From NCBI GenBank assembly GCA_017471175.1, contig JAFUVS010000017.1, forward strand, positions 62,001 to 126,000: a DNA stretch of 64,000 bases. The letters are read 5' to 3'. This DNA comes from Paludibacteraceae bacterium (lineage in GTDB: Bacteria; Bacteroidota; Bacteroidia; Bacteroidales; Paludibacteraceae). Each line of letters starts with the position of its first letter. Position 1 is the stretch's first letter. A program made the translations under genes and the position numbers. The notes under the pieces are model-generated. The model made no database searches. It had not been told where the DNA came from and was given only the letters and a program-made list of their open reading frames with translations. This document shows positions 3,001 to 56,799 of this stretch, piece after piece.

Positions 3001-5929
3001 CTGTCAGTCCGTTGCAACCCGTGAACATACCGAGGTAGCAATAGTTTGTCAGGTCTTTGTTGAACAGTGTGTCGTTGTCGAAAGTGAGAGATGTGCAGCC
3101 GTTGAACATATACTGCATATTACGGTCTCCCACCAACTCATCGACCTTAATTGTCGGCATCTTAGGCAATGCGGAGCAACCTGTAAACGCAGAACTCAAT
3201 CCAGACGAGCCAAGCGTACCAATGCGGATTGTATCTACAGAACTTAATGTTGTACAAGAGGGAAACATCTGTTCGCAGCCAAAACTATTCACCTCGTTGA
3301 TACTGATTTTTCCCATACGAGGAACTTTGGCAAGTCCATTGAACATCTGGTAACAGCCGCCTGTAGCCGTTTTATTTCCGCTCATTACACGTTCGGCATA
3401 CACATTAGGTGTCTTTTTCAATTTGGTGCTTCCGTTGAACATATTCTGACACCCCTGATTGTAGATGGCTTTGCTAACGATGATGTCGCCAGCCGTCATA
3501 GAGTCCGCAGCAGCAGTAGCAGTACCGCAGTTTTTGAACATAACGTTACAGCCTAACAATCCGATAGAGTCCACCACTAAAGTCGGAGTGTGCTTGATAT
3601 GCGTACAGCTGAGAAACATATTCTGGCACGCGCGGTCTTCAATAACCGATATTTTGAGAGTGTCCCACATATCGGTGATGCCGGCACAGCCGTTGAACAT
3701 ATAACTATAGGCGTATGGTGCAACCGTGTCGGCAGCCAGATGCAGTTCCGATACATCGGTAATACTCGTACAGTTTTGGAACATGTAGTAATAGCAGTAG
3801 TCTGTCAAGTCCTTGTTGAACAAAGTGTCTTTTTCCAGAGTAAGAGAGGAACAGCCGTTGAACATGTACTGCATCGGGTAACTCCCGCCAAATTCGTCAA
3901 TTTTAATCGTTGGCATCTTAGGCAAAGCCGTGCAACCTGTAAAAGCATAACTCAATCCATACGAGCCAAGCGTACCAATACTGATTGTATCTACTGCGAC
4001 CAATGTTGTACAAGATGGGAATATCTGTTCGCAGCCAAAACTATTCACCTCGTTGATACTGATTTTTCCCATACGGGGAACTTTGGCAAGTCCATTGAAC
4101 ATCAGATAGCATCCGCCTGTAGCCGTTTTATTTCCGCTCATTACACGCTCGGCATACACATTAGGTGTCTTTTTCAGTTTGGTGCTTCCGTTGAACATGT
4201 TCTGACACCCCTGATTGTAGATGGCTTTCTTTACGATAATGTCACCTGCAGTCATTGAGTCAGCTGTGGCTGTTGCCGTACCACATGCTTTGAACATAGC
4301 ATTACAGCCTAAAAGTCCGATAGAGTCCACTACCAGTGTCGAAGAGTGTTTTAATTTTGTGCAACCGTTGAACATTCCTTGACAGGCTCTATTGCCAATG
4401 ACAGATACTTGGATGCTATCCCATATATCAGTGATACCTGTACAGCCCGTAAACATGTAATTATAGGCATAAGGTGCAATTGTATCGGCAGGAAGGTATA
4501 ACTCGCTCGTATTGGTTATTCCTGTGCATTTTTCAAACATGTAATAATAGCAGTAGTCGGTTAGGCCGGTGTTTGACAGTGTGTCTTTATTAAAATCAAG
4601 AGACGAACAGCCTGTAAACATATACTGAAACGGATATGTCCCGCCAAAAGTGCCGACTTTTATTTTAGGTATTCGTTTCAGTTTTGTACATCCCGTGTAC
4701 ATATAACTACAGCCATAAGCATCAACTATGTCGGCCTTAATTGCACCAGCAGACGAGATTCCAGTCAAGTCCTGGAACATATACCTGCATCCACCGTTTT
4801 TATCCGTTGTGCCGAAGATTCTGCCTGCTTTAATGGCGGGAGCGTTTTTCAGCCGCGTACTACCTGCATACATAGTCTGACAGCCCTGGTAGTAGATGGC
4901 TTTGCTGACAATGATGTCTCCTGCTGTCATTGAGTCGGTTCCTGTGAGCGTTGTGCCGCAGGTTTTGAACATATTGATACAACCTGCCGTACCAATCGAA
5001 TCCACCTTGATAGCCGGGGTTTGGCGCAAGTTCGTACAGCCTAAAAACATCTGGTCACAACTGTTTGTAGCAATCACGGAAACACGGAAGGTGTCCATTA
5101 CCGAGGTCAGTCCCGTGCAAGCCTGGAACATCAGTTGGTAACAATAATTGTTCAGCGTGTCCGCAGCAAAATCTATACCTACCAAATCCGTCAAGCCTGT
5201 GCAACTCTGAAACATATTCAAACAGGCATACGTACCTAAATTGGACGGCACTCTAAATCCGCTCAAAGAGGTCAGACTTGTACAATTCTTGAACATCTGA
5301 TTATAGCTATAAGAAGCTACCGTTTCAGGTTCCGGTAATGACAGTCTGCTAATATCCGTTACGCCCGTACCTTGGAACATTGCACGGTAACAATTGACCT
5401 TTAATGTGGTAGCAGGCAAACGGACTTTGTCAATATTGGTTAGTGCAGTATTATTCAGGAACAAACAGTTGAAGCAGCAATGTGCAGGTATAGTGGTATT
5501 GGTGGCAAAGTTTTCACCATCAATCAATGACATCACATTTCCTTCAACCGAGAAATCTCCTGTCGTTACAAAGTACCAGCGTTTGTCGGTAAGACTTGTA
5601 CTATTAACGCCTAATCCGCTGGTGTTGATGCCATTGTCAGGATTACGGCGGAGACGCATAGTACTTCCTGCTTCAATAGTCAGTTTTGAGGCTGCAGCAG
5701 AAGCACTAAAAGTTTCCCATGTTTCTCCTTCGTCAGTACTGTATTGCAAGAAAAGGTTGGCAAGAGTTGTGACAGTCGGACTATTACTGTTTTTTGTCAT
5801 ATAGACCGTTGTTGTCTCATTGGCACGGAAGGTGAGTTCTTGGGAGAGGTAAGGGTCATCCGCCCATACAGGGGAAGTTACAAAAAGTATTGAGATTAAC
5901 ACCAAGAAAAAAGTAAGATGTTGTTTCAT
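1..5929 (-). CDS. Giant secreted BspA-like repeat protein, 3' end outside window
   Basis: The reading frame is open without a stop from the ATG at 5929 to the left edge, giving at least 1976 residues. It begins with a signal peptide (MKQHLTFFLVLISILF, ending near VWADD). After an N-terminal region of roughly 150 residues come dozens of repeats of 26-28 residues built on C-x(2-3)-MF-x-G/N-C-T-x-L followed by a short beta-like stretch. This resembles the bacterial surface protein 26-residue repeat / DUF285 and BspA leucine-rich repeat families, which are known in Bacteroidales surface proteins; the exact family needs a profile search. Each repeat brings about two cysteines, so the mature protein is extremely cysteine-rich. 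Larger blocks are duplicated too (about 3245-3480 matches 4001-4236). The C-terminus, where a T9SS or other anchoring signal would sit, is not visible. The gene lies 54 bases after a small secreted-protein gene on the same strand. A role in adhesion is inference. Confidence 0.85.
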   Translation of the reverse strand, partial: MKQHLTFFLVLISILFVTSPVWADDPYLSQELTFRANETTTVYMTKNSNSPTVTTLANLFLQYSTDEGETWETFSASAAASKLTIEAGSTMRLRRNPDNGINTSGLGVNSTSLTDKRWYFVTTGDFSVEGNVMSLIDGENFATNTTIPAHCCFNCLFLNNTALTNIDKVRLPATTLKVNCYRAMFQGTGVTDISRLSLPEPETVASYSYNQMFKNCTSLTSLSGFRVPSNLGTYACLNMFQSCTGLTDLVGIDFAADTLNNYCYQLMFQACTGLTSVMDTFRVSVIATNSCDQMFLGCTNLRQTPAIKVDSIGTAGCINMFKTCGTTLTGTDSMTAGDIIVSKAIYYQGCQTMYAGSTRLKNAPAIKAGRIFGTTDKNGGCRYMFQDLTGISSAGAIKADIVDAYGCSYMYTGCTKLKRIPKIKVGTFGGTYPFQYMFTGCSSLDFNKDTLSNTGLTDYCYYYMFEKCTGITNTSELYLPADTIAPYAYNYMFTGCTGITDIWDSIQVSVIGNRACQGMFNGCTKLKHSSTLVVDSIGLLGCNAMFKACGTATATADSMTAGDIIVKKAIYNQGCQNMFNGSTKLKKTPNVYAERVMSGNKTATGGCYLMFNGLAKVPRMGKISINEVNSFGCEQIFPSCTTLVAVDTISIGTLGSYGLSYAFTGCTALPKMPTIKIDEFGGSYPMQYMFNGCSSLTLEKDTLFNKDLTDYCYYYMFQNCTSITDVSELHLAADTVAPYAYSYMFNGCAGITDMWDTLKISVIEDRACQNMFLSCTHIKHTPTLVVDSIGLLGCNVMFKNCGTATAAADSMTAGDIIVSKAIYNQGCQNMFNGSTKLKKTPNVYAERVMSGNKTATGGCYQMFNGLAKVPRMGKISINEVNSFGCEQMFPSCTTLSSVDTIRIGTLGSSGLSSAFTGCSALPKMPTIKVDELVGDRNMQYMFNGCTSLTFDNDTLFNKDLTNYCYLGMFTGCNGLTDIEGLHIAADTLAPYACNAMFSSCANLTSVKDTLRFKVIGSHSCDQMFTTCKKLDVSPVIFADSIGEAGCYRMFVNCSTNASVGLSAAGNIVVNGKISTLGLNEIFSGCNRLTTAPSVFAKRVGSNGATQTGGCYNMFNSLKITSADYLKIDTIDAFGCELMYNKCASLAAMDTIIMDSVGTQGCWKMFDGCTVLTQAPKIKAGVIGYRGLYQMYTGRTPFTSSDTIFVRLIGENGCEQMFNGCSGLTKLPYIAADSIGLAGCSNMFKSCTALDFDNDILPCSKLGPQAYSYIFNGCNGITDLSQLNLPVTRLEEDCYQFMFNSCLGLVDISTFVLPATEIAPGAYNNMFNACTNLTTAWPVFSPSIIGDYGCYHMFNGCIRLDPAPAITVDSIGPNGCQQMFINCYNSKTATGIHTAGDITVSGTVGAHGLNDIYSGCHYLTTTPNITAGRIMSNDAINTGGCYRMFNGLTGLTSAGYMRVGTIGSFGCQEMFQGCTNLLSMDSIRVDSVGTKGCYQMFKTNAKFANSPKITADVIGEQGCLQFCNCTTLVSSDTIRARKVYQEGFREMFNGCTKLAASPYIAIDSVGESGCYRMFGGCWKDASNGILTADSLIIDKIGYAACESMFEGCKRLATINGIKNTKMYDYGCYNMFKTCTALVDISDLALSAPIMGAHCYDNMFSGCTALTTIMPRIEVSYIGEQSCYQMFNTCKKLTAAPAIIVDSIGVKGCQQMFKDCYNSTGPTGLVSAGDIVVNGKIAPLGLNDMYLGCQLLTTAPSVTAGSIESDGTVNTGGCYRMFNTLNGLTSAGYLRAGTIGDFGCQEMFFTCKLLTGMDSIVVDSIGTKGCYQMFLTNVKFAHAPKINAGVIGEQGCYQMLSGTTNAAVLTADTIRAREIHQEGLREMFSGCKKLSVSPYIISDTIGYLGCYRMFNGCYTDATVGLHKADSIIVNNAIGREGCEEMFLGCQRMDTARAILTPKIHEAGCMNMFQNCFVVSTTA
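3245..4236 (-). repeat. 756-bp higher-order duplication inside the giant repeat gene
   Basis: Bases about 3245-3480 reappear almost unchanged at about 4001-4236, an offset of exactly 756 bases (252 codons, nine or so protein repeats). A more diverged third copy of part of the block is seen near 4850-4935. The reading frame is kept, so the copies add whole sets of protein repeats. This points to recent unequal recombination within the gene. Confidence 0.75.
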
Positions 5930-6435: not shown

Positions 6436-6588
6436 TCCACTTACACAAAAAAAACGACGAAAATTACGATTAGTGCTGTATAACACACTACTAATCAACT
6501 AATAGTGGTGTTATTCTATTTTACAAGCACCCTATCCGACGGGAGAGGGGATTGCGAAAGCATTTTGAGAGTACGGTGAGAGCATAGT

Positions 6589-6676
6589 TGACCTATAGGT
6601 GACCTATGGGTGACTTATGGGTGACCTATGGGCGACCTATGGGTGACTTATGGGCGACCTATGGGTGACCTATGGA
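6589..6676. repeat. 11-bp tandem repeat, 8 units
   Basis: Eight head-to-tail units of 11 bp with consensus TGACCTATGGG. Variation is confined to unit positions 1, 5, 9 and 11 (for example CGACCTATGGG, TGACTTATGGG). The period is constant with no insertion or deletion. It lies between two divergent promoters, roughly 95 bases upstream of the plus-strand one. Confidence 0.95.
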
Positions 6677-26777: not shown

Positions 26778-27602
26778 TCAAAATCTTAGTTTATAATGTC
26801 GGCGGAGGTAAGCGGGGTCAAAAAAGACCATTCCCAGATTGTACAGGTCGAAGGTGGATGTAACGCGGGGGTCAGTTTTGATGGTATGCCAGGCGCGTTC
26901 CATATCGGGGTTCCAGTGTATATCGTCAAGTACAATGACGGATTTGGCGGAAACGAAAGGCAGTATAGTGTTGAAATAGCGCAGTGTGGCTTCTGCGGTA
27001 TGGTTGGCATCGATGAAAGCGAGGTCGAGGTATTGGAGTTGGTAGAGTGCGGGTGAAAGGGTGTTGTCAATGTTACCGCAAACGGGTTGGATATTATTGA
27101 TTTTTAGTTTATTCCAATTGGACTGTGCGAGTTGGAGGAGTTCTTGACAGCCTTCGAGGGTAGTGACTTGGTTACGGGAAGAAGGTGCGGCGAGATAGGC
27201 GGTTGTGATGCCGAGGGATGTGCCTAATTCGAGGATATGAAGGGGGCTTTGTCGGTTGCCGTTCCACTGTCGGTCGGAGAGGAAGTGGACTAATCGGAAG
27301 AGGAGTTGTGCGTTTTTAGGCGATTCGAGTGAGGTGGCAGCGATGTGCTTGACCGTACGGTTGGGGGAGGTATGTTTACCTGTGCCATAATCAGTGATAT
27401 GGAGCGATTTGTTGTTGTTTAACAATGCGTTGCGCAGTTGTTCGATAGGTTGGAAGGCGTAGAATGGGTTTGAGTCGTAGAGGCAATGTCTGACGAAGTA
27501 GAAGAGGTATGGTGAATGGATGCCTTCTCCGCCAGTGTTCCAAGCGGTAAGTTGGTGTCGAAGGAAGGAGAAAGTTCGATATGCTAAAAGGCGCAAAGAC
27601 AT
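26778..27602 (-). CDS. Class I SAM-dependent methyltransferase
   Basis: The start at 27602 (MSLRLLAYRTF) follows a promoter at 27622-27653, giving 274 residues; the open frame reaches 27632. The N-terminal GGEGIHSPYLFYFVRHCLYD resembles a Bacteroidota-specific group of methyltransferases. The Rossmann SAM site is ILELGTSLGITTAYLA (about 123-138), with acidic loop TTLEGC and motif LAFIDANHTAEATLRYF, then IVLDDIHWNPDMERAW, as in O-methyltransferases of the catechol type. The substrate is unknown. The C-terminus HYKLRF ends just before the adenosyltransferase gene. Confidence 0.85.
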   Translation of the reverse strand: MSLRLLAYRTFSFLRHQLTAWNTGGEGIHSPYLFYFVRHCLYDSNPFYAFQPIEQLRNALLNNNKSLHITDYGTGKHTSPNRTVKHIAATSLESPKNAQLLFRLVHFLSDRQWNGNRQSPLHILELGTSLGITTAYLAAPSSRNQVTTLEGCQELLQLAQSNWNKLKINNIQPVCGNIDNTLSPALYQLQYLDLAFIDANHTAEATLRYFNTILPFVSAKSVIVLDDIHWNPDMERAWHTIKTDPRVTSTFDLYNLGMVFFDPAYLRRHYKLRF

Positions 27603-27621
27603 AAGGTAACGGAAATCGCGG

Positions 27622-27653
27622 CAAAGGTACAATCAAAGTTTTCGCCCACCAAA
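27622..27653 (-). promoter_or_regulatory. Promoter of the methyltransferase gene
   Basis: Minus strand: TTTG (27653-27650), 20 bases, TACCTTTG (27629-27622), 19 bases before the ATG at 27602. Confidence 0.85.
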
Positions 27654-27753
27654 TGTTGTGGCAGAAAAAAGGTGTAAGGTGGAAAAATAAGCTTTTTTGA
27701 TTGATTACGTTTGTGGTTGATTATAAGCGTATTAGTCGGTCTAAGCAGCGGAA

Positions 27754-27852
27754 TCACATAATAATCACATAATAACCACATAATAATCACATAATAACCA
27801 CATAATAATCACCTAATAACATCCTAATAATTATCTAATAATCACTTAATAT
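27754..27852. repeat. 11-bp tandem repeat, 9 units
   Basis: Nine contiguous 11-bp units, consensus TCACATAATAA, with the first five almost identical (first base T or C) and the last four drifting (TCACCTAATAA, CATCCTAATAA, TTATCTAATAA, TCACTTAATAT). The 11-bp register never breaks. The AT-rich TAATAA part recurs on the same helical face. Confidence 0.95.
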
Positions 27853-27950
27853 AGTAAGGGGGAAATGGCGATTGGAAGTGTGGTTTGCTTATGAAATCGC
27901 GACCACAGAACACAGCGGACATGGAATATAATGTGAACGGAGCGGCATAG

Positions 27951-28043
27951 TATGCCGCACAATTGACAAAACCGCAGGGGGGGATGCTGTGCAATTGAAA
28001 AAAACGTGGGGGTATGCTATACAATTGACAAAACCGTGGTGGG
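27951..28043. repeat. About 31-bp tandem repeat, 3 units
   Basis: Three imperfect units of 30-32 bp, each TATGC... CAATTGACAAAAC followed by CG and a G-rich tract (GGGGG-like), at 27951-27982, 27983-28012 and 28013-28043, with a degenerate fourth start after it. Located upstream of the holB promoter. Confidence 0.85.
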
Positions 28044-28117
28044 TTATGTTGATGGTGGGGATATAAAAAGGGAGACGGGGTACGTAATGGGCGTGGAACG
28101 GGATAAATGTTTTTTGA

Positions 28118-28213: not shown

Positions 28214-28255
28214 CAAGTAGGGTGATGTCTTGAACAAGTAGGGTGATGTCTTGAA
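28214..28255. repeat. Perfect 21-bp direct repeat in the holB leader
   Basis: The 21-bp sequence beginning CAAGTAGGGTGATG occurs twice without a gap (28214-28234 and 28235-28255), ending 14 bases before the holB start codon. It lies downstream of the predicted promoter and would be transcribed. Confidence 0.95.
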
Positions 28256-28269
28256 AGTAAGAACAGGAA

Positions 28270-29409
28270 ATGCGATTCAGGGATATAATCGGTCAGGAGG
28301 GTGTCAAGCGTCGGTTGATACAGTCGGCTCGTGAGGGTCGTGTGCCCCATGCGCAGTTGTTTGCGGGCAAGCAGGGCGTGGGCAAGATGCAGTTGGCGAT
28401 GGCATACGCGCAGTACCTGAACTGTGAGCATCCTACGCAGGAGGACTCGTGCGGCGAGTGCCCGACATGCAGACAATTCGAGCGGATGCAGCACCCTGAT
28501 TTGCACTTTACATTCCCGATAGTGAAAGGGGATGCGGGGGATACGTGCAACGATTTTGCGGATGCTTTTCGCGGAATGGTTCTGGAGAAGGGTTACTTTT
28601 CGTTGGAGGACTGGTATGAGGCGATGGGTGTGGAGAACAAGCAGGCTGTTATCTACGAGAAAGAGAGCGGCGAGATTGTGCGCAAGTTGTCGCTGAAAGC
28701 GTTCGGAGCGGGGTATAAGGTGATGATAATCTGGCAGGCTGAGAAGATGAATGTGACTTGTGCGAACAAGTTATTGAAGTTGCTTGAGGAGCCACCTGAG
28801 CGGACGTTGTTCTTCTTGGTGAGCGAAATGCCTGAGCGGTTGCTTCCGACGATATTGAGTCGTGTGCAGGTGGTACGTGTGCCGCCGTTGCAGGATGAGC
28901 AGGTGGCGCAGGCGCTGACGGCTCGCGGCGTGGAAGAGCAGAATGCCAACGATATAGCACATATCGCACAGGGGAGTTACCTGAAGGCGTTGCAGATAGC
29001 GGAGGATAAGGAACAGAATCAGGCTTTTATGGAGGATTTTGTGTCGCTGATGCGCTGTGCTTGGTTGGTGGGGCACAAGAAAGACTATGCATCGCTGCTG
29101 AAGTTGAGGCAGTGGAGTCAGAATATGGCGGATGCGAAAGTGGGGCGCGAGAAACAGAAGGCGTTCCTGCAATTCGTGCAAAAGCAGATTCGCGAGAACT
29201 ACATCTATAATTACGGTTTGCCTCAGGTGAACTACCAGATGCAGGAAGAGAAGGCTTTCAGCAAGAACTTTGCCGCGTTTATCCATTCGGGGAACGTAGA
29301 ACAGATTATCAATGAGTTGGATAAGGCAGAACGGCAAATAACACAGAACGGGAATGCAAAGATGATATTCTTCGATTTGTGTTTGCAGATGATAGTTTTG
29401 ATTAAGTAG
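28270..29409 (+). CDS. holB: DNA polymerase III delta' subunit
   Basis: This protein has 379 residues of the clamp-loader AAA+ family. It starts MRFRDIIGQEGVKRRL, has a Walker A-like loop (FAGKQGVGKMQLA, about 33-45), a zinc-binding cysteine cluster (CEHPTQEDSCGECPTC) and the sensor region NKLLKLLEEPPERTLFFLVS with SRVQ (the conserved SRC/SRx arginine finger position). The C-terminal collar domain follows. As part of the clamp loader it helps place the sliding clamp on DNA. It starts a plus-strand run with ricT, gldH and trmB. Confidence 0.93.
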   Translation: MRFRDIIGQEGVKRRLIQSAREGRVPHAQLFAGKQGVGKMQLAMAYAQYLNCEHPTQEDSCGECPTCRQFERMQHPDLHFTFPIVKGDAGDTCNDFADAFRGMVLEKGYFSLEDWYEAMGVENKQAVIYEKESGEIVRKLSLKAFGAGYKVMIIWQAEKMNVTCANKLLKLLEEPPERTLFFLVSEMPERLLPTILSRVQVVRVPPLQDEQVAQALTARGVEEQNANDIAHIAQGSYLKALQIAEDKEQNQAFMEDFVSLMRCAWLVGHKKDYASLLKLRQWSQNMADAKVGREKQKAFLQFVQKQIRENYIYNYGLPQVNYQMQEEKAFSKNFAAFIHSGNVEQIINELDKAERQITQNGNAKMIFFDLCLQMIVLIK

Positions 29410-34770: not shown

Positions 34771-36453
34771 ATGAAAGCAAAAGTTCTATCTTTGACAATC
34801 GCTTTGTCCTTTGGTCTTGTTCTCACTGCGCAGGATTATTCCTTGCAGCCCGCATTAGGAGACAACTGCACCAGTATTCTTGTCTCTCGCGGAGCCAGTG
34901 AGGATGGTTCGGTGATTACTTCTCATACGTGTGATTCGTGGTATCGCACGTGGATGCGTTGGCTTCCTTCGGTGGAGTACAAGAGCGATACGCTGGTAGA
35001 GGTCTATAGTGGACTGATGCACACCGAGTACCCTGGCAGTATGGATGGTGTAAAAGTGAAAGGGAAAGTTATGCAAAAAGCGGGCAAGACCTATCGCGTG
35101 CTTGACACTGCTTACCCTTGTATGAACGAGAAGCAGCTGGCTATGGGCGAGACTACCTACGGCGGGCGCGATACCTTGCGCAATAAGGAAGGCTTGCTGA
35201 TGATTGAAGAGTTGGCGCGTCTTGCTCTACAGCGTTGTTCCACGGCGCGGGAGGCTATCCTTTATATGGGTGAGTTGGCGTATGAATACGGCTATGGTGA
35301 TGGCGGCGAGTGTCTGACGATTATTGACCCCAAAGAAGCATGGATATTCGAGATTCAGGGTGAAGGTCCTAAGCAGGTCGGTGCCGTATGGGCGGCGTGC
35401 CGTATCCCTGACGGAGAAGTGAGTGTGAGTGCCAATATCAGCCGTATAGGTAGTCTCAAACCATTGTCCGAACCGGCACCGCAGAAAACCAAAAAGGGCA
35501 AGAAAGCACCTTATAAACCTCTTGAAAGCGAGAGTGTGATGGCATCGCAGAACGTCTTCTCCGTGGCTCGCCAACTCGGTTTATGGGACGGGTCTTCCGA
35601 GTTTTCGTTCTGGCGCGCATATAGCGGTGAAAACTATGAGGGCGAGATGAAGAACTACGCTATACGCGAACTATTTGTGCTGCAACAGATTGCCCCCTCG
35701 TTGGGTCTGACCAAGGACATTGAGGAATTGCCTTTGAGCGTCAAACCCGACAAGAAACTGTCTGTCAAGGACGTTAGCCGTCTGCTCGGCTCATACTATG
35801 AGGGTACTGAAAACGACCTGACTCAACTTATGCGTGTACCCAAGAAAGGTCGTCAGCTCTTCAGTAAGGAGAAATGGGAGGACAAGGACAGTGTCGTTTC
35901 CAATTTCGCCAATCCGTGGATGCGCTTTGACGAGATTAGTGCCTATTATGCTATGACGGGCGATGCACGCTTTGATTGGGTTCGTACTATTGCTGTGCCC
36001 CAATGCGCTTATTCCACTGTCATTCAAGCGCGCGAATGGTTGCCCGATGCCGTGGGAGGTGTATGCTGGATGTCGCTTGACAACCCCGGACAGAGTCCGC
36101 GTTTCCCTATTTTTGCAGGAGGCACTGAACTGCCGGCTATGCTCAAGATTTGCGGACAGCACCGCTATCGTGAGGACTGCCTGTTGTGGCACTTGCGCCA
36201 GACCAACAAACTCGCTGCTGTGCGGTGGGGAATATGTCGTAAGACCCTCGAACCGGCACGTGACCGATTCCTTGACAAAGGTTTGCGCGAAATGCCCTAT
36301 GTGGAAAAAATCTATAAGGAAACCGCTTTCAGGGACGAAAAAGAGGCTACTGCATTGCTCAATGATTATACTGCTGATTTCGTAGGTGCACTTGTCTTGC
36401 GGTGGGATGAACTGTACTTGAGTTATTGGCGCAAGTTCTGGGCAGGATTCTAA
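34771..36453 (+). CDS. C69 family dipeptidase, secreted
   Basis: This protein has 560 residues with a signal peptide (MKAKVLSLTIALSFGLVLTA). The mature protein has DNCTSILVSRGASEDGSVITSH, where Cys33 is the expected N-terminal nucleophile of the C69 (PepD/U34) family after self-processing. Further family segments are GGRDTLRNKEGLLMIEELARLALQR (seen as separate short motifs GGRDTL and EGLLMIEELARLA), YEYGYGDGGECLTI and the late FPIFAGGTELP. It likely cleaves dipeptides in the periplasm. It follows the fba terminator; an inverted repeat lies just after its stop. A TATCTTTG inside the signal-peptide codons is not taken as its promoter. Confidence 0.9.
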   Translation: MKAKVLSLTIALSFGLVLTAQDYSLQPALGDNCTSILVSRGASEDGSVITSHTCDSWYRTWMRWLPSVEYKSDTLVEVYSGLMHTEYPGSMDGVKVKGKVMQKAGKTYRVLDTAYPCMNEKQLAMGETTYGGRDTLRNKEGLLMIEELARLALQRCSTAREAILYMGELAYEYGYGDGGECLTIIDPKEAWIFEIQGEGPKQVGAVWAACRIPDGEVSVSANISRIGSLKPLSEPAPQKTKKGKKAPYKPLESESVMASQNVFSVARQLGLWDGSSEFSFWRAYSGENYEGEMKNYAIRELFVLQQIAPSLGLTKDIEELPLSVKPDKKLSVKDVSRLLGSYYEGTENDLTQLMRVPKKGRQLFSKEKWEDKDSVVSNFANPWMRFDEISAYYAMTGDARFDWVRTIAVPQCAYSTVIQAREWLPDAVGGVCWMSLDNPGQSPRFPIFAGGTELPAMLKICGQHRYREDCLLWHLRQTNKLAAVRWGICRKTLEPARDRFLDKGLREMPYVEKIYKETAFRDEKEATALLNDYTADFVGALVLRWDELYLSYWRKFWAGF

Positions 36454-36645
36454 TGGAAGGATGAATTGCCGATGTTATCGAAGCGGAATTGGTCGTCCAC
36501 GCCCAATTCCGCCCCTTCGTCTATCAATCCATCAAAGCCGGGCAAACCAACCAATGACAGATAGATAAGGCAGATTTTTACAAAAATCAACTTTCTATTA
36601 ATCAGCAATCGTCAAGCTATGTACATGCAGAGCGCAAGCATTCTA

Positions 36646-36689
36646 TAGTAGGTGGTTAGTAGGTGATTACTATGTTATTTGTACGTAAT
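36646..36689. repeat. Degenerate 11-bp tandem repeat, about 4 units
   Basis: Units TAGTAGGTGGT, TAGTAGGTGAT, TACTATGTTAT and TTGTACGTAAT follow each other in an 11-bp register. Only the first two are close copies, so this is the weakest of the four 11-bp arrays. Confidence 0.55.
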
Positions 36690-36731
36690 TCAGCTGATCA
36701 CAAGCTTACTACAGCATAACAAAATAACAGT

Positions 36732-36751
36732 ATCCGCCAAGTTTGGCGGAT
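36732..36751. promoter_or_regulatory. Perfect 20-bp palindrome
   Basis: ATCCGCCAAGTTTGGCGGAT: 9-bp arms with a 2-base centre. There is no T run on either strand directly after it, so it is better viewed as a possible operator or recombination remnant than as a terminator. It lies 80 bases upstream of the C10 protease promoter. Confidence 0.5.
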
Positions 36752-36923: not shown

Positions 36924-39857
36924 ATGAAAAAAATAATACTCTTGTTTCTGCTATTACCATGCTTGGTAATGGCATCGCCGGTGAGTCCCGATAAGGCTAA
37001 AAAAGTAGCCACTCATTTCTTTGAAAACGCTATCCAAGAGAATGCCGTTCAGCGGCGCAAAGCCTCATTCCAACGCATAGAGCAACCTCACAGCAAGAAA
37101 ATCCGCAGAGCTGCCGGAAGAAGCTATGAACCCTATTATGTCTTCAATAATATGGATGGGGGATTTGTCATCGTCGCAGGTGACGATAGAGTGCAGCCGA
37201 TATTGGCGTACTCCGCTGATGGCGAATTTGCTCAAGACAGCCTACCTTCCCAGATTCAAAAGTGGTTGGATATGTACAGCAAGCAAATTCAGTATGTGAC
37301 TGATAACAATATATCTAATGACAGTATTGCAAGTCTCTGGACCATTTCCGTTCCATGCAGAACGATGGCATCTGAAGTGGTTGCCCCTCTCTTACAAACC
37401 CGCTGGAACCAATCGCCTCTTTATAACGACAAGTGTCCCTATGATGCAGAACTTTCTCCGTTGGGTTCACGCCCTACGGTAGGGTGCGTAGCTTGTGCGA
37501 TGGGGCAGATAATGAAGTATTGGGAATTCCCTTCTTTTGGTCTTGGCAGCCACTCCTACAATTCTGCCAACTACGGCACGCTGTCCGCAAACTTCGGCAG
37601 AACAAAATACGATTGGGCTAACATGCCGGAAAGACTTACAGCAAGCAGTACGGAAGCACAAATAGATGCTGTTTCCACTTTATTATACCACTGCGGCGTT
37701 TCGGTTGATATGCAGTATAACAGCGACGGCAATGGTTCCAGCGGAGCTTATACGACATTGCCGGCTCGCTATAAAATATGGAAAGCGACAGCGGAAGAAG
37801 CATTGGTGGATTATTTCGGATATAAAGCCGGTACTGTCAAAGGAGTATTTATGGAAGATTACACATATAATGAATGGATATCTTTACTTAAGAACGAACT
37901 GAACAATAATCGTCCTATCCTGTATTCCGGTGCCTCGGACGGCGGAGGGCATGCCTTTATCTGTGACGGATATGATGATGACGATTTCTTCCATTTCAAC
38001 TGGGGTTGGGGAGGCTCATACAACGGTTATTATACCTTATTGACATCCTCCTATCCTCTTATTCTTTATCCGCAAGACCAAAATGCAGTAATCGGCATTA
38101 TACCGGACAAAACTTCACAAACGTATGATTTGGCTATGTATGCGGACTTGGAGACAGCAAGTTCCACCTACACTTTTGGTCAGGATATGTCCGTCACAGG
38201 ACAAATCGAAAACAACGGCACCGGCACATTTATGGGAGAATTCAGAGTGGGGCTTTACAATTCCAACGACGAATTTGTCGGATGGTCCAACGAGACTTAT
38301 TCCGTCACGCTGGCAAAAGGCAATTATACCACTGCAAAAACCTTTACTTTTACAGGAGGAACACCCTACATTACAGGGAAATATACTGCATATATGTTCT
38401 ACCGGGAAAATGGTACTTACCAATGGCATCCGGTCAGAAGTGACATAGGTCTTTTCCTCACGGAATATAACAATGTCTCTTTTACTATCTCATACAAGAC
38501 GAATTCCTTACGGACTTATTCCGCTTTCTCTGTAGCGGAAAACAAGTTTGTAACAGGACAGTCCGTGCACGTTAATGTGGATATTCTCAATGCCGGCAGT
38601 TCCACTTTCTACGGAAAAATAAAGTTATGCCTGACACAAACCGACGGCTCTATCGCCCAAGACATTGACATCTATAACACCACATCCGGATTAAACGCCA
38701 ACACACATTTTTCCGGCGGATTGGATTTTGCCGGTACACTCACTGCCAATCCGGGAACATACTATCTGACGTTGCTGTTCCAAAGAACAGGCGAAACGAC
38801 TTGGTACTATGTGGGATGCGACCAATACCAGAATCCTACTCCTGTCAATGTGGTTGCACCTCCTTTAGTGGCAGACAGCTATGAAGAAAACGATACACAA
38901 GCCACATCAGCAAACATAATGCCCGATTTCATAGAAGCGGACAAACCTACTTTCGGAACCGGGGAAGTATCATTACATACGACCGAAGATATTGATTACT
39001 ATAAAGTCGATTTCCCTGCCGGATACAAATATTACGTTACAATCGATTTGTATGACTATTACAACCGGAACGGCAACTACCATTCAGGTGATGTGAAATT
39101 AGCCTACTCATTAGACGGTCAGACATATTCCGGGTATTTTGACGATGGGGTCAGCGAAGCAAATCAAGTAGTCTTTGAAGGACCGCTAACAATGTATATA
39201 CAGGTTGTTCCTTACCTTACTGATTGGATTGGTACTTACGAATTGGCAGGACATGTTACACGTGAAAAAATAGATGATGTTCCCGATGACTCCCAACCCG
39301 ATAACGGTAATTATGTCGTCCTTGCGCAACGCAGTGCAACGGAAAACTGGTTCTATATGACTTCCGATTTGGGAACGGCAAAGAACAAACGCTACCAGGC
39401 TGTGGATGCCGGCACAAACTCCCTGGCAAGTGTGAGCACATTTGGTTTGGAAAGCAAGTATTATTGGCGGATAGAAGGCAACAAACTCCACACAGCCGCC
39501 GGTTACAGCACTTGGACTTCCGGCAATACCGCCATCTTGAATGAAACAGGCAAAGAACTGACTATTGAAAAGCAAGCAGACGGAACTTACACCTTCTCGT
39601 TTGCAGATGGAACCAACACTCGCTATTTGGCATTTAATAAGACAGCCGGAAACAACTATTTTGCCTACTACAGCGGTACAAACCAAATCTATAAGCTTAC
39701 GCTTGTTAAAGAAGGCAAAAACGGAACAACCACCGCCATAGAAGAAAACGAATCTCAGCCAAACACTCAAACAGCAACCAAAATCCTTCGCAACGGACAA
39801 ATCCTTATCCTCCGCGGCGACAAGACCTATACGCTGCAAGGTCAAGAGGTAAAGTAA
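36924..39857 (+). CDS. Secreted C10 family cysteine protease with C-terminal sorting-like tail
   Basis: This protein has 977 residues. After a signal peptide (1-17) comes a propeptide/Spi-like inhibitor domain (about 20-150) and the streptopain-type C10 catalytic domain: nucleophile Cys188 in PTVGCVACAMGQIMKYW and His343 in GGGHAFICDGYD, then the NWGWGGSYNGYY motif. Residues about 400-800 form beta-sandwich domains, including a CARDB-like pair and a pre-peptidase-like domain (DSYEENDTQATSA). Near the end a region with SATENWFYMTSDLG precedes a short conserved tail (KILRNGQILILRG, then KTYTLQGQEVK) common on Bacteroidales secreted proteins, probably a type IX secretion signal or its relic. Similar enzymes are PrtT, interpain and Bfp proteases. 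It has its own promoter. Confidence 0.9.
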   Translation: MKKIILLFLLLPCLVMASPVSPDKAKKVATHFFENAIQENAVQRRKASFQRIEQPHSKKIRRAAGRSYEPYYVFNNMDGGFVIVAGDDRVQPILAYSADGEFAQDSLPSQIQKWLDMYSKQIQYVTDNNISNDSIASLWTISVPCRTMASEVVAPLLQTRWNQSPLYNDKCPYDAELSPLGSRPTVGCVACAMGQIMKYWEFPSFGLGSHSYNSANYGTLSANFGRTKYDWANMPERLTASSTEAQIDAVSTLLYHCGVSVDMQYNSDGNGSSGAYTTLPARYKIWKATAEEALVDYFGYKAGTVKGVFMEDYTYNEWISLLKNELNNNRPILYSGASDGGGHAFICDGYDDDDFFHFNWGWGGSYNGYYTLLTSSYPLILYPQDQNAVIGIIPDKTSQTYDLAMYADLETASSTYTFGQDMSVTGQIENNGTGTFMGEFRVGLYNSNDEFVGWSNETYSVTLAKGNYTTAKTFTFTGGTPYITGKYTAYMFYRENGTYQWHPVRSDIGLFLTEYNNVSFTISYKTNSLRTYSAFSVAENKFVTGQSVHVNVDILNAGSSTFYGKIKLCLTQTDGSIAQDIDIYNTTSGLNANTHFSGGLDFAGTLTANPGTYYLTLLFQRTGETTWYYVGCDQYQNPTPVNVVAPPLVADSYEENDTQATSANIMPDFIEADKPTFGTGEVSLHTTEDIDYYKVDFPAGYKYYVTIDLYDYYNRNGNYHSGDVKLAYSLDGQTYSGYFDDGVSEANQVVFEGPLTMYIQVVPYLTDWIGTYELAGHVTREKIDDVPDDSQPDNGNYVVLAQRSATENWFYMTSDLGTAKNKRYQAVDAGTNSLASVSTFGLESKYYWRIEGNKLHTAAGYSTWTSGNTAILNETGKELTIEKQADGTYTFSFADGTNTRYLAFNKTAGNNYFAYYSGTNQIYKLTLVKEGKNGTTTAIEENESQPNTQTATKILRNGQILILRGDKTYTLQGQEVK

Positions 39858-56639: not shown

Positions 56640-56733
56640 AATAAATATGTTTATAGGTTGATTGGTTGATAAGTTATTGAGTTCTTAGGTTGATTGGTTG
56701 AAGAGTTCTTATAAGTACTTCCCGCCGTGTAGA

Positions 56734-56799
56734 ACGTAATAAACACGATACATATACGATAGATATACGTTAGATAAACGAAATATAAACGTTAGTTAA
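56734..56799. repeat. 11-bp tandem repeat, 6 units
   Basis: Six units in strict 11-bp register, each starting ACG: ACGTAATAAAC, ACGATACATAT, ACGATAGATAT, ACGTTAGATAA, ACGAAATATAA, ACGTTAGTTAA. The ACG start is invariant and the rest is AT-rich and variable. Confidence 0.88.

Follow-up and report, generated by a model that had tools for sequence, protein, structure and literature searches.

Intergenic Arrays of 11-bp Tandem Repeats in a Genus of Paludibacteraceae and a Candidate Protein Partner, P0001

The DNA described in this report is a window of 64,000 nucleotides (positions 62001-126000 of contig 4) from the 1.81-Mb genome of a Paludibacteraceae bacterium, which is distributed over 21 contigs. 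The nearest named relatives of the PSP1-domain protein are from Paludibacteraceae and Bacteroidales MAGs, several of them from herbivore guts, and the "Candidatus Colicola" records among them probably share a genus with this genome. The genus is one of uncultured bacteria from the gut.

Four arrays of 11-bp tandem repeats are found in the window. The array at 6589-6675 (plus strand) contains 7.9 copies of TGACCTATGGG with an 88% match. The array at 27752-27851 (plus strand) was determined with TRF to contain 9.1 copies of AATCACATAAT with an 84% match and 4% indels. It is flanked by a Methyltransf_24 gene at 26778-27632 (minus strand) and by holB at 28270-29409 (plus strand), as identified by Pfam searches of the neighbors. 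The other two arrays are short and degenerate. The first of these, at 36646-36690, reads as AATCACCTACT on the minus strand with a GTGATT core on the plus strand, and its 2.2 clean copies extend to 36669 and are followed by the degenerate run GTGGTTAGTAG GTGATTACTAT GTTATTTGTAC GTAATT. It is held within a dispersed 133-bp element at 36591-36723 (plus strand), which was identified by sequence comparison. The second, at 56733-56799 (plus strand), has 3.4 clean copies of ACGATAGATAT within about six degenerate ones and is located approximately 95 bp upstream of panC. The lag-11 scores of the arrays at 6589, 27752, 36646, and 56733 were determined to be 62, 59, 18, and 25, respectively, against a shuffled maximum of 9-11. 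For all four arrays, none of 500 dinucleotide shuffles of the array with 160 bp on either side matched the real score. The arrays listed in the first-pass annotation are real. They had been described as intergenic, which is confirmed by our own gene calls, made from codon scores and not from an annotation. Three of them had also been placed between divergent or separately promoted genes. The divergent setting was found for the arrays at 6589 and 27752; those at 36646 and 56733 are located in gaps between same-strand genes.

The units of the four arrays had been regarded as unrelated. They are of three kinds: family A (27752 and 36646, with an AATCAC core), family B (6589), and family C (56733). 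Since the array at 36646 is the reverse complement of AATCACCTACT, the hexamer AATCAC/GTGATT is common to the arrays at 36646 and 27752, and the earlier description holds for the three kinds and not for this pair. Every kind recurs in the genome. A query with the 27752 array returned 18 matches in its own genome, itself included, and the 6589 array has copies at L060:8663 and L061:19007. The units of the 6589 and 56733 arrays also recur in the sample of this genome, and no unit of the window is unique to it. The 27752 array is bordered on the left by CAGCGG (27746-27751, plus strand) and on the right by ATAGTAAGGGGG (27851-27862, plus strand), both read from the sequence. Among the 22 arrays of its family in the sample of this genome, AGCGG is found within 12 bp ahead of the array in nine, and TAGTAA(G/C)GGG within 75 bp after the array, also in nine.

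Other repeats and genes were observed close to these arrays. A 30-bp repeat (GGGGGTATGCTATACAATTG..., 2.2 copies by TRF) is located at 27978-28044, just downstream of the 27752 array, and a perfect 21-bp tandem duplication at 28214-28255 lies immediately upstream of holB. A Peptidase C10 with a Spi inhibitor domain (Inhibitor_I69) is encoded at 36924-39857 and adjoins a Peptidase_C69 gene at 34771-36453 (Pfam).

The periods of tandem arrays were determined with a lag-match scan of noncoding DNA. The sample of this genome (41 stretches totaling 816 kb, of which 119 kb are noncoding) contains 111 arrays, 35 of them with a period of 11 bp. Periods of 9, 10, 12, and 13 bp account for 4, 3, 2, and 2 arrays, respectively, and a period of 7 bp for 14. 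Other species of the genus (55 stretches or loci, 995 kb, partly overlapping) gave 23 period-11 arrays out of 88, with 7, 1, 1, and 0 arrays at 9, 10, 12, and 13 bp and 21 at 7 bp. The corresponding values for G063, the closest of the sampled genus genomes by panC (40 stretches, 762 kb), are 59 of 108 arrays at 11 bp and 3, 4, 1, and 0 at the four neighboring periods. This period is found in just 2 of the 34 arrays from the order's other genera, which are represented by 65 loci (1.16 Mb); named loci were assigned to the inside or outside of the genus by similarity (with a break between L163 and L164) and not by taxonomy. The excess at 11 bp over 9, 10, 12, and 13 bp that the first-pass annotation had made its test is therefore present in this genome and in the genus. 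A single dinucleotide shuffle of the noncoding DNA of each locus yielded one array in total. Arrays dispersed within one genome are not independent, and the two genus samples overlap, such that at least one array (that held by both L093 and L152) and some genes are counted twice.

The preference for 11 bp extends over many unit sequences. For arrays of at least four copies (TRF), the 11-bp period is represented by 83 arrays from 20 unit families, 7 bp by 30 from 13, 8 bp by 21 from 5, 9 bp by 9 from 4, 10 bp by 7 from 5, and 12 bp by 2 from 2. Common descent of all of the unit families was rejected, as their representatives are no closer to one another than permuted units (3.46 vs 3.36, sd 0.15). 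A general 11-bp periodicity of intergenic DNA was also rejected because no 11-bp autocorrelation of this DNA was seen outside the arrays. Lag-11 pairs of about two copies are in excess as well; many of these pairs are parts of arrays.

The spacing within the arrays is well preserved. No indel was found in 107 of 117 period-11 arrays, compared with 130 of 196 arrays of other periods (7-10 and 12-24 bp; Fisher p = 3e-7), and the mismatch level is similar in the two groups. For period 7 alone, 25 of 31 arrays are free of indels, and the difference from period 11 has a p value of 0.10. The pattern AATCAC-N5-AATCAC-N5-AATCAC was found in 25 of 61 genomes, every one of them among the 37 of the genus; the same triplet with N4 or N6 spacing was found in none of the 61. 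The five linker bases vary between species and between arrays. Within family A, no mismatch was found at position 2 (180 units) or position 9 (177 units), and the variable positions are 3, 4, 5, 7, and 10. Family C varies mainly at positions 4, 7, and 11. The same position-dependent pattern was found in three data sets (this genome, G063, and other species), for which the chi-square tests are inflated by copies that were inherited together. Selection on the spacing, which had been suggested from the four arrays of the window, fits the excess at exactly 11 bp across many unit sequences and the rarity of indels within the arrays.

The arrays turn over fast. This genome and G063 have 54 gaps in common; a period-11 array is present in both genomes at one of these, in this genome only at two, and in G063 only at two. 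The gap with arrays in both is located upstream of panC, where the array is of the CGTATATCTAT type in this genome and of the GTATCCCTATA type in G063. Both arrays end 94 bp before the gene, and no period-11 array was found in the 450 bp upstream of panC at the other 28 panC loci that were read. A second gene, which we take to encode a sugar-phosphate nucleotidyltransferase, also has arrays no farther than 250 bp away in each of the two genomes. Such gaps or genes with arrays in both genomes can be a chance coincidence. A comparison of the array-bearing gaps with those of G063 was given up because the intergenic DNA is too diverged for the borders to be placed.

Period-11 arrays are located in long gaps (median 466 bp, compared with 106 bp for 7-bp arrays). 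Divergent gaps hold 17 of 50 such arrays and 20% of the intergenic length (p = 0.02), and convergent gaps hold 2 of 50 and 15% of the length (p = 0.03). The promoters of Bacteroidetes have the form TTG-N18-22-TAnnTTTG, which was found 1.0-1.4 times per kb between genes and 0.06-0.11 times per kb inside them. For array-promoter pairs within the same gap (104 arrays with both flanks), the period-11 array is upstream of the promoter motif in 93 and downstream in 14. The upstream fraction of 0.87 exceeds the 0.77 obtained with random placement (sd 0.03; 0 of 200 placements as high), and 60 of the 93 upstream arrays are 50-200 bp from the -33 box (65% vs 37% under random placement). The shift is weaker for periods of 9, 10, and 12-17 bp (39 upstream vs 13 downstream, 0.75 vs 0.66 at random). 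Both orientations are found among the arrays upstream of promoters. A consistent helical phase between array and promoter was not found, the lowest of 32 uncorrected p values being 0.016. The genes looked up beside dispersed arrays are diverse housekeeping genes. Conservation of the place of the 27752 array ahead of holB was rejected since the local gene order is not conserved.

In a sample-wide search for genes that recur beside arrays, P0001 alone stands out; of the 49 members of a secreted family, 5 are close to arrays. P0001 is the gene found after three A-type arrays of this genome. The encoded proteins (28 members, 126-191 aa) are basic, with a median pI of 9.9 and a range of 8.7-10.4. 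The family was found in 29 of 61 relatives, all within the genus; as many as 11 matches were seen in a single genome, and G002 has about nine distinct genes. An order-wide search of 247 genomes, in which two other genera of the family were represented, found it in two, and these both belong to the genus. No match of weight was found in Pfam, NCBIfam, PHROGs, PADLOC, or the PDB. Weak matches to CHASE3 (E = 0.0007, 1 of 28 members), DUF7167 (E = 0.025, 3 of 28), and a CII-like activator in PHROGs (E = 0.003, 1 of 28) were judged to be due to chance. One member that was tested has no relatives in phages, plasmids, or viral contigs.

An 11-bp array was observed within 450 bp upstream of P0001 at 26 of 30 loci and then at 19 of 20 in a second set, which was hand-picked from protein matches and includes four loci known beforehand to have an array (L338, L341, L349, and L353); 15 of the remaining 16 have one. 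Combined, 43 of 48 distinct P0001 loci have an upstream 11-bp array, compared with 95 of 1747 other genes examined by the same method (Fisher p = 2e-45), where the loci present in both sets (L323/L347 and L325/L342) are each counted once. The loci without an array are L305 and L326 (with 178 and 41 bp of upstream DNA available, respectively), L316, L330 (a partial protein), and L340. This association of P0001 with 11-bp arrays is new.

P0001 proteins whose identity to the first aligned member is 25-39% keep the array, and the unit changes. The leader units include TTAGTGATTCT, GGGGTGATTAC, TATTGGGTGAT, TTGTCGCGTGA, and AGTGGGTGATT, among others, a few of which lack GTGAT. Units of distant P0001 proteins are still closer to one another than permuted units (4.81 vs 5.42, sd 0.05), and the unit distance tracks the protein distance (Mantel correlation of 0.33, reached by 10 of 2000 permutations), as would be expected from either co-evolution or plain ancestry. 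Of 29 leaders inspected (25 of the first 30 loci, without L305, L316, L320, L326, and L330, together with L280, L069, L142, and L081), 16 have a promoter motif 5' of the array, positioned 12-24 bp before it in 10 of the 16, and one has the motif between the array and the start codon. GTGAT is on the sense strand in 24 of the 29 and ATCAC in none.

The leader arrays and the scattered arrays share sequence. The element at 36591-36723 of the window is 87% identical over 133 bp to a stretch upstream of P0001 on contig C12 of the same genome (L069:4188-4320, with the gene at 4466) and has 80% identity to a site in a different species (L134). The leader at L049 matches L066 and L081 over 203-238 bp at 89-90% identity, and a P0001 gene is present at L081 and not at L066. 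Among the matches listed, an exact 5-bp linker is common to dispersed and P0001-leader arrays in 13 of 18 genomes, and shuffling of the genomes gave a mean of 3.40 and a maximum of 9, with 0 of 20,000 shuffles reaching 13. Examples are GCGAC/GCGTC in G009, CCAAT in G013, and CCCGT in G020 and G052. No common linker was found among the matches listed in the other five (G004, G017, G041, G045, and G049). The 18 genomes consist of an initial 15 (12 sharing, among the matches listed) followed by G041 and G049, which count against, and G010, which counts for; G014, G044, and G063 are outside the table, and related species share linkers. Linkers in common could also stem from copying of the leader without binding. 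Across the 37 genomes of the genus, the presence of AATCAC arrays is not correlated with that of P0001, which was found in 20 of 25 genomes with arrays and in 9 of 12 without.

A platform for a nucleoid protein was one of the explanations offered by the first-pass annotation. The P0001 family, genus-restricted and with an array in its own leader, is a concrete candidate for that idea, and we infer the binding itself from these sequence associations. We propose that P0001 may read DNA target arrays in 11-bp steps, autoregulating in its leader and having more sites upstream of other promoters, a proposal that we consider evenly balanced between right and wrong. The arrays would be targets that P0001 recognizes by their sequence and that are phased with the DNA helix. 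A unit of 11 bp is close to one turn of negatively supercoiled DNA and would carry one protomer or dimer, with neighboring proteins binding cooperatively on the same face of the DNA. The leader array closely follows the promoter, so that a protein bound to it would repress the P0001 gene itself. The dispersed arrays, mostly upstream of unrelated promoters, could be further sites that tune transcription or organize the DNA locally. The accepted bases would differ by paralogue and species, such that the unit drifts and the step, and often the core, stay. The stoichiometry, the repression, and the inclusion in one system of array families without GTGAT are likewise parts that this model would supply. 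The arrays and P0001 together point to a home-grown DNA-binding (or RNA-binding) system and not to random repeats.

The closest architecture to the arrays with P0001 is that of parC/ParR from plasmid R1, which is described in the consulted portions of PMC9426499 and PMC5016525 as tandem 11-bp direct repeats around a promoter with a small binding protein that represses the operon encoding it; the repeats vary in length and sequence from plasmid to plasmid. The P0001 loci resemble it in having direct repeats of 10-11 bp close to the promoter of the protein gene; the arrays reported here differ in being chromosomal, numerous, and dispersed. Ribbon-helix-helix proteins matching the RHH_1 model were rejected as the array partner because none was found in this genome (1 of 37 genomes of the genus has one), and the P0001 profile has no credible PDB match.

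Several observations count against binding by P0001. Families B, C, H (ACTATAGGGAT), J (AAGGGTAGCGC), and K (AAATGAACGGG) have the 11-bp step and no linked gene in the samples of G063 and this genome, and the presence of AATCAC arrays is not correlated with that of P0001 within the genus. The fast turnover, the lack of a helical phase, the diverse housekeeping neighbors, and the lack of a credible fold match also count against it, as do the indel rate at period 7, the upstream shift of other periods, weaker as it is, and the five genomes without a common linker.

A broader reading is possible, and we hold it more tentatively than the binding proposal. The genus may have its own repeat-and-reader system, in which P0001 is a multicopy orphan family whose specificity drifts across species and paralogues and is followed by dozens of dispersed arrays, with all 11-bp families, including those without a partner, being current or past targets of paralogues. 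If true, this system would be a layer of regulation or architecture that is specific to the lineage, spans the chromosome, and belongs to no known kind. Reading by P0001 would explain, in a way open to testing, how unrelated repeats can have a period in common: the period would belong to the reader and the sequence to its specificity. If P0001 binds the arrays, the genus would also provide many natural protein-site pairs for the study of co-evolution between DNA-binding specificity and dispersed sites, and a protein family that had no role would have a predicted one.

Selfish dispersal is the strongest of the alternatives, and we regard it as rather unlikely. P0001, or an unseen enzyme, would move or copy its own leader, and the scattered arrays would be non-autonomous copies. 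The 11-bp step would in this case be the format in which the mobility protein recognizes its sites. Dispersed copies do extend beyond the array (over 203-238 bp for L049/L066/L081 and 133 bp for the window element and its P0001 leader), linkers are shared with the leader arrays, and the same 28-mers were found at 6 and 4 places in G012. Many arrays, however, have just the array and short edges in common, no inverted repeats of at least 10 bp were found around the two window elements (27640-27960 and 36560-36740), and the tested P0001 member lacks relatives in phages, plasmids, and viral contigs. No transposase or HUH match of weight was obtained; the Pfam rve_3 match has an E value of 0.11 in 1 of 28 members. 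The model for such dispersal is REP with RAYT, which is the closest genome-wide pattern. REP elements are palindromes, and RAYT proteins are tyrosine (Y1 HUH) transposases. The arrays, in contrast, are direct repeats with an 11-bp step, and palindromes were not found in the two A-type elements of the window; in the region of family B, a single imperfect and overlapping palindrome was seen at 6583-6608. No Y1 HUH transposase was matched among the 28 P0001 members at E values of up to 1 in Pfam and 0.1 in PHROGs. What is shared, as given in parts of PMC3116915 and PMC2817692, is short intergenic repeats scattered over the chromosome and a gene family with cognate copies. Even if mobility is the right reading, P0001 and the arrays would form an element of gene plus tandem array, unlike the palindromic REP systems. 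The BrickBuilt MITE of Porphyromonas gingivalis is an intergenic minisatellite of the Bacteroidales, with 19 copies in one strain, promoter elements, a 23-nt unit, and terminal inverted repeats according to sections of PMC4596501. It differs from the arrays, which have an 11-bp period and no inverted pair of at least 10 bp in the same two window regions.

A system acting at the level of RNA, in which the array is a repeated RNA in the P0001 leader, either similar to a type III antitoxin or serving as an RNA operator, is improbable. It would account for an array between the promoter motif and the gene of a small basic protein and for the strand preference of GTGAT in the leaders. The units, however, are 11 nt in length, no ToxN-like or defence match of weight was found, and the dispersed arrays occur in either orientation, mostly upstream of promoters. 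The type III systems are known by their gene order and, for ToxIN, by repeats of 34-48 nt. The P0001 loci resemble them in the placement of the array between promoter and protein gene (motif 5' in 16 of 29, between in 1) and differ in the 11-nt repeats and in the dispersed arrays away from the gene. No ToxN/TenpN/CptN-type toxin was found among the 28 members with Pfam and PADLOC, in which one NsnC match has an E value of 0.02. In portions of PMC8860590, ToxIN is described as a repeat RNA encoded together with a small protein gene. Tested defining features of BrickBuilt, REP/RAYT, and the type III toxin-antitoxin systems are thus lacking here.

Slightly less probable still are neutral minisatellites without function, formed by slippage with a mutational bias for 11-bp steps and occasional copying. 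In favor of this, the arrays turn over quickly, arrays of 7 and 8 bp are also common and are located in short gaps (with 25 of 31 7-bp arrays lacking indels), and two-copy pairs at lag 11 are in excess, although many of these are parts of arrays. Against this stand the rarity of indels relative to the other periods pooled, the positional conservation in three data sets, the restriction to one clade, and the arrays found at 43 of the 48 loci that encode members of a single, diverged protein family. Long simple sequence repeats with units of 6-11 bp are enriched in the intergenic DNA of some prokaryote genomes (PMC4060949); the excerpts of that survey treat the units as a class, with neither one preferred period nor a partner gene named. 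The first-pass annotation had known of no described element of this kind, and none is named in the open-licence PMC papers among the matches listed.

Intrinsic bending, in which phased units would curve the DNA with no specific protein required, is very improbable: the period is near one turn of supercoiled DNA and the arrays are 50-200 bp upstream of promoters, but the curvature of 26 units is not above that of shuffled units (mean percentiles of 0.45 and 0.43 for two wedge models), A-tracts occur in 8 of the 26 compared with 9.7 expected, and phasing to promoters is not consistent. The phased bending proposed at first is not supported. In the same units, TA and AT steps are slightly above shuffles (31 vs 25.5 and 32 vs 25.6, respectively, sd 3.3).

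Repeats of other kinds were also observed in these genomes. Degenerate repeats of 7 and 8 bp, such as AGTTTAG, are a second preferred period of the genus and are located mostly in short co-directional gaps in the samples of this genome, G063, and the genus. One and the same short gap between co-directional genes, located about 450-500 bp upstream of holB, is filled by tandem repeats of 7, 8, 11, or 15 bp in different species of the genus (L023, L024, L026, L027, L028, L031, and L033). On contig C17 of this genome, an 11-bp array (L081:15920-15963) overlaps the last bases of an rsmH-like gene by our own gene calls, at the junction between the end of that gene and the small, presumably ftsL-like gene that follows. 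In three composite arrays of G063 (L281:16833-17083, L264:8040-8142, and L266:12088-12208), the unit switches midway and the 11-bp self-match persists.
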